From the NCBI GenBank assembly GCA_001767525.1, contig MELF01000036.1:62001-126000 (forward strand): 64,000 nucleotides of DNA, written 5' to 3'. A model generated the notes under the pieces. It did not search any database and was not told where the DNA came from. It saw only the letters and a program-made list of their open reading frames with translations. The translations under genes were made by a program, and so were the position numbers. This stretch comes from Acidobacteria bacterium RIFCSPLOWO2_12_FULL_68_19 (GTDB lineage: Bacteria > Acidobacteriota > Vicinamibacteria > Vicinamibacterales > UBA2999). Below, one piece after another: positions 28,782 through 30,994 of this stretch (within the stretch, counting starts at the first letter, position 1; the number at the start of each line of letters is the position of its first letter).

Positions 28782-29347
28782 GACTGTTCGTCGCGGTCGA
28801 GATCGATCCGGCCGTGCTCGACCGCATCGCGGCGTGCAGTGCGGAGTTGCGGCGCCGCTCGGCGGTCGCAGCCCGAGCCCGCATCAGCTGGGCTCGCCCC
28901 GACCGCCTGCATGTGACGGTGCGGTTCATCGGCGAAGTGGACGGGGGGCGGGCGGAGGCGATTGTCGCGGCGCTCGAGCCCGCGTTGTCGGTGGCGGCGT
29001 TCGACCTGACGGTCGAGGACGTCGGAACGTTTCCCGCGCAGGGGCCGCCGCGGGTGCTGTGGGCCGGAATCGCCCGCGGGCTCGACGCGCTGCGCGCCGT
29101 CGAGGTGGAAGTGTCGGGCCGGCTGGACCGCTGCGGCATTGCCCGCGAGCCGCGCGCGTACCATCCGCACGTGACGCTGGCGCGGGTGCGCGAGGCCGGC
29201 GGATTGCGGACCGCGCAGTGGCTCGATGGACTCGCCGGACGGCAGTTCGGTACGTCCCGGGTGAACGCGATTACACTGTTTCAGAGCCGCCCCTCGCCGC
29301 AGGGTCATGAGTACGTCGCCCTGCAGCGCACCGCGCTCGCGACGTGA
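28778..29347 (+). CDS. thpR: RNA 2',3'-cyclic phosphodiesterase
   Basis: 2H phosphoesterase of the LigT/ThpR family, 189 residues. Both catalytic H-x-T-x motifs are present: HVTV near 47 (RLHVTVRFIGEV) and HVTL near 129 (YHPHVTLARVRE). The GTG start overlaps the cinA stop (GTGA) and its own stop touches plsY. The physiological RNA substrate is not known for most bacteria. Confidence 0.93.
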   Translation: MRLFVAVEIDPAVLDRIAACSAELRRRSAVAARARISWARPDRLHVTVRFIGEVDGGRAEAIVAALEPALSVAAFDLTVEDVGTFPAQGPPRVLWAGIARGLDALRAVEVEVSGRLDRCGIAREPRAYHPHVTLARVREAGGLRTAQWLDGLAGRQFGTSRVNAITLFQSRPSPQGHEYVALQRTALAT

Positions 29348-29934
29348 TGGAAGAAGTCGTTGCCGTTGCCCTCGGCTACCTGGCCGGTTCGGTGCCGTTT
29401 GCGTTCCTGCTCGCCCGGCGCCGCGGGGTCGATCTGCGCCGCGTCGGAAGCGGCAATGTCGGGGCGGCCAACGTGCTCCGCACGAGCGGCGTGCGGCGGG
29501 CGCTCGCGGCCGTCGGCCTCGATGCCGCCAAGGGGGCGCTGGCGGTGCTGGTCGCCGCGCGGCTCACGGGCGGTCCGGCCACGCCCGTCGCGGCCGGACT
29601 GGCGTCGATCATCGGTCACATCTACCCGTTATGGCTGCGGTTCCGCGGCGGCAAGGGCGTGGCGACCGCCGCCGGGGTCTTCATCGTGCTTGCTCCGGCT
29701 GCCGCGGCGACGGCCGGTATTGTCTTCGTGCTGGCAACCTGGGCGACGCGCTACATCTCGGTCGGGTCGATGGCGGCCGCAGTGGCCCTGGCCGTCGCCG
29801 CGCCGGCGGGCGACGGCCCGACGGCGGTGGCGGTCGGGGCCGTGATCGCGGCGCTCGTCATCGTGCATCGACATCGCGCCAACGTCGGGCGACTCGTCGA
29901 GGGAACCGAGCGGCGCATCGGACACCGGATCTAG
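29347..29934 (+). CDS. plsY: Acyl-phosphate:glycerol-3-phosphate acyltransferase
   Basis: Inner-membrane enzyme that starts phospholipid synthesis by acylating glycerol-3-phosphate. The 195 residues have GYLAGSVPFAFLLAR at the N-terminus, the motif GSGNVGAANVLRTSG near 35, and FRGGKGVATAAGVF near 98, all conserved in PlsY, with about five membrane segments. ATG 29347 overlaps the thpR stop (TGATG); a GTG three bases earlier is also possible. gpsA, the supplier of its substrate, follows directly. Confidence 0.96.
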   Translation: MEEVVAVALGYLAGSVPFAFLLARRRGVDLRRVGSGNVGAANVLRTSGVRRALAAVGLDAAKGALAVLVAARLTGGPATPVAAGLASIIGHIYPLWLRFRGGKGVATAAGVFIVLAPAAAATAGIVFVLATWATRYISVGSMAAAVALAVAAPAGDGPTAVAVGAVIAALVIVHRHRANVGRLVEGTERRIGHRI

Positions 29935-29942
29935 GAGGGGTT

Positions 29943-30941
29943 ATTCGTCACGTCGCAATTCTTGGCGCGGGCGGATGGGGAACCGCGCTCGCGGTGCACC
30001 TGGTCCGGGCCGGCCACGAGGCATGGCTGTGGGCGCGAGACTCGGCGCTCGCCTCCGACATGCGGGCGCGGCGCGCCAACGCCGTCTACCTGCCAGACGT
30101 GGTGTTTCCCGAACAGCTCCGGGTCACTTCGGACCTCGACGAGGCGCTCGACCGCGCCGACTTCGTCGTGTCCGCGGTGCCGTCCCACGGGACGCGGCAG
30201 ATCCTCCGGTCCGTGGCGCCGCGCATACGGCCGGGCCTGACCGTCGTCAGCGCCACCAAAGGCCTGGAGCAGGATACGCTGCTTCGCATGTCGCAGGTGA
30301 TCGAACAAGAGCTCGATTCCCGCGTGCGCTGTGCGGTGCTGTCGGGTCCGAGCTTCGCGGCCGAGGTCGCGCGCAAGCTGCCGACGGCGGTGTCGGCCGC
30401 GTCTCGCGAGGAAGCGGTCGTGGAGCAGGTGCAGGCGGATTTTCGTGCGCCGTACTTCCGCGTCTACGGCACGTGCGACGTCGTGGGCGTCGAGATTGGC
30501 GGCGCGCTGAAGAACGTCATCGCCATCGCCGCCGGCGTCGCCGAAGGGCTCGGGCTCGGACACAACGCGCTGGCGGGACTCATCACCCGCGGGCTGGCGG
30601 AAATCACACGACTCGCGTGCGCGGAGGGAGCGCAGCGCGAGACGCTGGCAGGGCTCACCGGCCTGGGTGACCTGGTGCTGACGTGCACGGGATCGTTCAG
30701 CCGCAACCGGCACGTCGGCATCGAACTGGCGCGCGGGCGCCCGCTGCAGGACGTGCTGTCCGGCATGAAGATGGTGGCCGAAGGGGTGCGTACGACCGAG
30801 GCGGCGCTGGCGCTGGGCGCCCGGCACGGCGTGGAGCTGCCGATCACCGCGCAGGTGGCCGAGCTGCTCGCGGGGCGCAGGGGCGCGCGAGCGGCGCTCG
30901 ATGAGCTGATGCTGCGCCCGCAGCGCGCCGAGACGGGATAA
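29943..30941 (+). CDS. gpsA: Glycerol-3-phosphate dehydrogenase (NAD(P)+), apparently starting at ATT
   Basis: Makes sn-glycerol-3-phosphate from DHAP. The 332 residues show the Rossmann motif HVAILGAGGWGTALAVHL at the very N-terminus, SATKGLEQD, GPSFAAEVARKLPTAV, and the catalytic Lys in ALKNVIAIAAGVAEGLGLG. No ATG, GTG or TTG is available at the expected N-terminus. ATT at 29943 gives the family start (M)RHVAILGAG and sits four bases after a strong AGGAGG (29933-29938). Nearest canonical starts upstream lie inside plsY in another frame. ATT initiation is inferred. Confidence 0.93.
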   Translation: MRHVAILGAGGWGTALAVHLVRAGHEAWLWARDSALASDMRARRANAVYLPDVVFPEQLRVTSDLDEALDRADFVVSAVPSHGTRQILRSVAPRIRPGLTVVSATKGLEQDTLLRMSQVIEQELDSRVRCAVLSGPSFAAEVARKLPTAVSAASREEAVVEQVQADFRAPYFRVYGTCDVVGVEIGGALKNVIAIAAGVAEGLGLGHNALAGLITRGLAEITRLACAEGAQRETLAGLTGLGDLVLTCTGSFSRNRHVGIELARGRPLQDVLSGMKMVAEGVRTTEAALALGARHGVELPITAQVAELLAGRRGARAALDELMLRPQRAETG

Positions 30942-30950
30942 TGGCTTGTC

Positions 30951-30978
30951 GGTAGCCGGTAGCCGGTAGCCGGTAGCC
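30951..30978. repeat. Four tandem GGTAGCC heptamers before ftsY
   Basis: Four exact copies of GGTAGCC, ten bases after the gpsA stop and 16 bases before the ftsY GTG. The same unit with the same preceding GTC is found at 8351-8399. No gene lies here. Confidence 0.95.
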
Positions 30979-30994
30979 CGGACCGCCGGTAGAG

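Follow-up and report, generated by a model that had tools for sequence, protein, structure and literature searches.

The window, by which we mean the whole stretch of DNA analyzed, comprises 64,000 nucleotides (nt) from Acidobacteria bacterium RIFCSPLOWO2_12_FULL_68_19 (assembly GCA_001767525.1, contig MELF01000036.1, positions 62,001 to 126,000). Its plus strand carries gpsA, the gene for NAD(P)H-dependent glycerol-3-phosphate dehydrogenase, at positions 29943 to 30941 (332 amino acids plus a stop codon), and translation from 29943 yields IRHVAILGAGGWGTA.... The product matched the NCBIfam model NF000942 (GpsA) with 425.7 bits (cut-off, 257) over residues 3 to 330 and PF01210 with 177.5 bits, above the cut-off and the top match of the whole genome. 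GpsA is thus a full-length member of its family, as was also supported by comparison with homologues.

The reading frame begins with ATT (29943 to 29945, plus strand), which is expected to be decoded as fMet. It is preceded on the same strand by a strong Shine-Dalgarno (SD) sequence, AGGAGG (29933 to 29938), with a proper spacer of 4 nt, and the region from 29930 to 29960 reads TCTAGGAGGGGTTATTCGTCACGTCGCAATT. No in-frame ATG, GTG, or TTG is found between 30 codons upstream of the ATT and residue 6. The preceding open reading frame in the ORF list (29344 to 29934, plus strand) we take to be plsY, encoding acyl-phosphate:glycerol-3-phosphate acyltransferase; a homologous gene lies 5' of gpsA in relatives. 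Its stop codon TAG (29932 to 29934) overlaps the gpsA SD and is located 8 nt ahead of the ATT. On the other side of gpsA, a short tandem repeat of GGTAGCC-type units occupies positions 30945 to 30980, before the downstream gene.

gpsA start codons in related genomes

We compared the gpsA start regions of 46 distinct sequences, the window among them, with identities of 58% or more, plus that of one additional genome, G017, giving 47 loci. A strict set was defined by the lack of any canonical start from the nearest upstream in-frame stop codon (or over 20 codons) to residue 6, and an SD was not demanded. Six loci qualified, namely the window and five others from as many other genera (G018, G015, G029, G031, and G017). 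All six have ATT (five loci) or ATC (one locus) exactly at the column of residue 1, with GGAGG 4 to 5 nt 5' of that codon. Three more genera provide probable cases, each with a strong SD: G034 (ATC), G024 (ATT), and G032 (ATC). Altogether, GGAGG or AAGGAG is present 4 to 6 nt upstream at 9/9 gpsA loci with an isoleucine start.

The codon preceding the ATT or ATC is variable (GTT, CAT, CCC, GGT, or AAT), which leaves the isoleucine codon as the fixed point of the gpsA start. Internal codons of the window genome specify isoleucine in ∼4.3% of cases and are ATT in only 0.7%, ATC exceeding ATT by ∼5:1, whereas the strict set, G017 included, shows the opposite preference, with ATT exceeding ATC by 5:1. 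This preference, together with the recurrence of isoleucine, indicates that the gpsA codon is unlike an ordinary internal isoleucine codon. The strict-set loci are phylogenetically related, such that multiplying their probabilities would overstate the case.

In-frame stop codons upstream of gpsA bear on the possibility that translation begins elsewhere. In the window, the frame is open over 226 codons upstream of the ATT and contains an ATG at 29307, in a stretch that overlaps plsY out of frame; moreover, the probable cases G034, G024, and G032 have an ATG, GTG, or TTG lacking an SD at 6, 2, and 5 codons upstream, respectively. However, the frame is closed 21 (G018), 11 (G015), 8 (G029), 3 (G031), and 3 (G017) codons upstream in the five homologues, with no ATG, GTG, or TTG in between, which led us to reject initiation farther upstream within the long open frame. 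Furthermore, no upstream codon is conserved among homologues, and initiation at a GTG ∼17 codons downstream would remove the conserved GxGxxG motif. We therefore regard as very unlikely a start at a canonical codon in the plsY region, at an upstream near-cognate codon, or at the downstream GTG. The first-pass annotation had placed the start at ATT 29943, with AGGAGG 4 nt before it and no ATG, GTG, or TTG nearby; the sequence and the relatives confirm this description, and the predicted start position is well supported. Automatic annotation likely misplaces the gpsA start in these genomes.

The alignment of orthologues from close relatives, suggested in the same annotation as a check on the ATT, gave a divided answer. 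ATT or ATC occupies this position in the five other genera, whereas a same-genus relative reads TCTAGGGGGATGGGA, in which an ATG lies one codon upstream and the SD (AGGGGG) is weaker, and G019 and G026 have ATG or GTG at the very same codon. About half of the close relatives start gpsA with ATG, GTG, or TTG, and thus the isoleucine start is not indispensable. The ATG of the same-genus relative, along with the fragmented state of the window's assembly, could be taken to mean that a sequencing or assembly error has altered a true ATG. Such an error is extremely improbable, given that an isoleucine start with an SD recurs in nine separate assemblies from nine genera. Since five genera other than that of the window carry ATT or ATC where no canonical start is available, the isoleucine start is a feature of the lineage rather than an error.

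To delimit this lineage, we scanned 193 genomes of the class with a DNA pattern composed of an SD, ATH, and the GpsA N terminus. Nine genomes matched, and the nine genera that they represent all belong to the family of the window, while a reversed control pattern had no match in the same 193 genomes. The pattern with ATG, GTG, or TTG, for which an SD was not demanded, matched 63 genomes of many families. A spread beyond the family was also considered and rejected: the four outside matches, among 396 genomes of the phylum, have an ATG or GTG right after an in-frame ATT or ATC and are hence canonical. Judging from these scans, the isoleucine start of gpsA is family-specific among the genomes searched.

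In a GpsA tree, eight of the isoleucine-start cases fell inside one well-supported clade of 15 sequences, with G032 outside. The start type changed at least six times on this tree, which may reflect one gain followed by several reversions or else several gains. Isoleucine starts were associated with SD strength (Fisher P = 6e-7; 6/6 independent pairs in most draws), an association that is partly circular because isoleucine starts were admitted only with an SD of at least 5 nt, a circularity from which the strict set is free.

The patchy distribution, the repeated changes, and the presence of ATG or GTG in place of the isoleucine codon in G019 and G026 would all fit a nonadaptive drift between ATG/GTG and ATT/ATC, tolerated given the strong SD and the coupling to plsY and without any link to initiation factor IF3. 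It would also fit that genes with weak starts in general tend toward stronger SDs (PMC5622118). Yet the strict set contains only ATT and ATC, never CTG, ACG, or other near-cognates, and a switch from AUG to AUU was recorded for 1 in 61,358 ancestral AUG starts (PMC5622118), while isoleucine starts in gpsA are recurrent within one family. We consider such drift somewhat unlikely as the explanation.

Isoleucine starts in the window genome and in other bacteria

We next consider the remainder of the genome, as far as it was covered by a simple codon-usage gene finder that places coding onsets only roughly. In the 59% of the genome scanned (1,915 predicted genes), SD-preceded ATG and GTG codons were in large excess near coding onsets (110 observed versus 7.8 expected and 42 versus 11.9, respectively), whereas isoleucine codons preceded by an SD showed no excess (ATT, 3 observed versus 4.2 expected; ATC, 14 versus 13.6; ATA, 0 versus 0.7). 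We therefore rejected the idea that isoleucine starts are a general habit of this genome. In the same portion, only gpsA and infC combine AGGAGG and an isoleucine codon with the lack of a canonical start from −20 to +15 codons, a restriction that also speaks against neutral exchange of start codons. The infC start reads GAGGAGGAGTC ATC GCT TAC, and the infC genes read in relatives of the family (L117 to L146 and L214 to L219) nearly always start with ATC, or with ATA in G016 and G018, behind a GGAGG-type SD. As a separate observation, a sensor-kinase-like ORF (L201:1545; G000:C8:41545, plus strand) has an apparent CTG start that follows an AGGAGG by 5 nt; its frame contains a stop codon 5 codons upstream and no ATG, GTG, or TTG within 15 codons downstream.

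The window's assembly (G000), although rated 100% complete, yielded neither 16S rRNA nor the standard initiator tRNA, and a strict search pattern did not clearly recover the standard initiator tRNA in relatives either. The missing tRNA might suggest that AUU and AUC are read in this family by an unusual initiator tRNA whose anticodon is of the isoleucine type. We find this highly improbable: isoleucine starts are not enriched in the scanned 59% of the genome, and assembly gaps are a simpler explanation, since the 16S rRNA is missing too and the search pattern demands particular flanking bases.

To our knowledge, isoleucine codons serve as starts outside infC in only a handful of genes, and in the literature searched we found no description of gpsA starting with AUU. 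infC is known for IF3 autoregulation. In E. coli and many other bacteria, it starts with AUU, AUC, or AUA and, like gpsA, has its isoleucine codon behind a strong SD at 4 to 5 nt; both genes have such starts in the same genomes. In contrast to infC, gpsA encodes an enzyme of lipid precursor synthesis and no translation factor, so that GpsA is not expected to feed back on its own synthesis.

Other precedents are closer in some respects. As cited in PMC9410913 and PMC13009471, Binns and Masters 2002 described an AUU start for pcnB of E. coli, like gpsA a chromosomal gene other than infC; pcnB differs from gpsA in gene, function, and phylum, and it is nonessential, whereas gpsA is an essential housekeeping gene. 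The AUA start of ccpN in Staphylococcus aureus and Bacillus subtilis and the AUU start of staphylococcal cvfC1 were demonstrated by ribosome profiling and reporters (PMC13009471). These genes share with gpsA a conserved isoleucine start and a strong, extended SD. The role of ccpN likewise lies in central metabolism, and how it is initiated depends on the medium (PMC13009471). gpsA differs from both in being an enzyme gene beside plsY, with a start predicted by comparison. On this comparative basis, gpsA is a putative new case among the few genes with isoleucine-codon starts, next to infC, pcnB, ccpN, and cvfC1.

Possible consequences for GpsA synthesis

The isoleucine start and the strong SD of gpsA suggest that its expression is either kept low or made dependent on how stringent translation initiation is. 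We consider it fairly probable, with some reserve, that initiation at AUU or AUC on a strong SD results in a low, IF3-sensitive output of GpsA. Initiation would occur at AUU, or at AUC in some relatives, and would most likely use the ordinary initiator fMet-tRNA, while the strong SD would retain the 30S subunit at a start codon that is poor by itself. Ribosomes terminating on plsY may feed the gpsA start via the overlapping stop codon. As IF3 disfavors AUU or AUC paired with the anticodon CAU, high levels of free IF3 would decrease GpsA synthesis, as for infC.

Several published observations agree with parts of this proposal. A higher IF3 level disfavors the reading of AUU by the CAU initiator anticodon (PMC10158994), and E. 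coli infC and pcnB are both limited in this manner (PMC9410913). In S. aureus, AUU and AUA starts with extended SDs gave ∼10% of the output of AUG, and ccpN reached up to 30% in rich medium (PMC13009471). By analogy, GpsA should be synthesized at a low, IF3-sensitive rate, and in the window its translation may be coupled to that of plsY.

PlsY consumes the product of GpsA, and low GpsA synthesis combined with the overlap of the plsY stop may set the GpsA:PlsY ratio. The gap between the plsY stop and the ATT or ATC is 8 to 11 nt in four cases but measures 35 nt in a fifth and 101 nt in a sixth, showing that tight plsY-gpsA coupling is not general. The recurrence of an isoleucine start on a core enzyme of phospholipid precursor synthesis makes it possible to test whether start-codon stringency serves metabolic control. 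In half of the close relatives, the start is ATG, GTG, or TTG and the SD is weak or missing, which makes the family a natural experiment.

The first-pass annotation had also raised a link between gpsA and IF3. That inference is strengthened by the start type that infC shares and by the restriction of such starts to these two genes in the scanned 59% of the genome, and from the sequences we likewise infer a link. Going further, gpsA and infC might form a two-gene IF3 regulon, in which start-codon stringency, set by free IF3 per ribosome, would tune the supply of glycerol-3-phosphate and phospholipid, a reading suggested by their being the sole strong-SD isoleucine starts found. We hold this extension to be doubtful; if true, it would link membrane synthesis to translation capacity.
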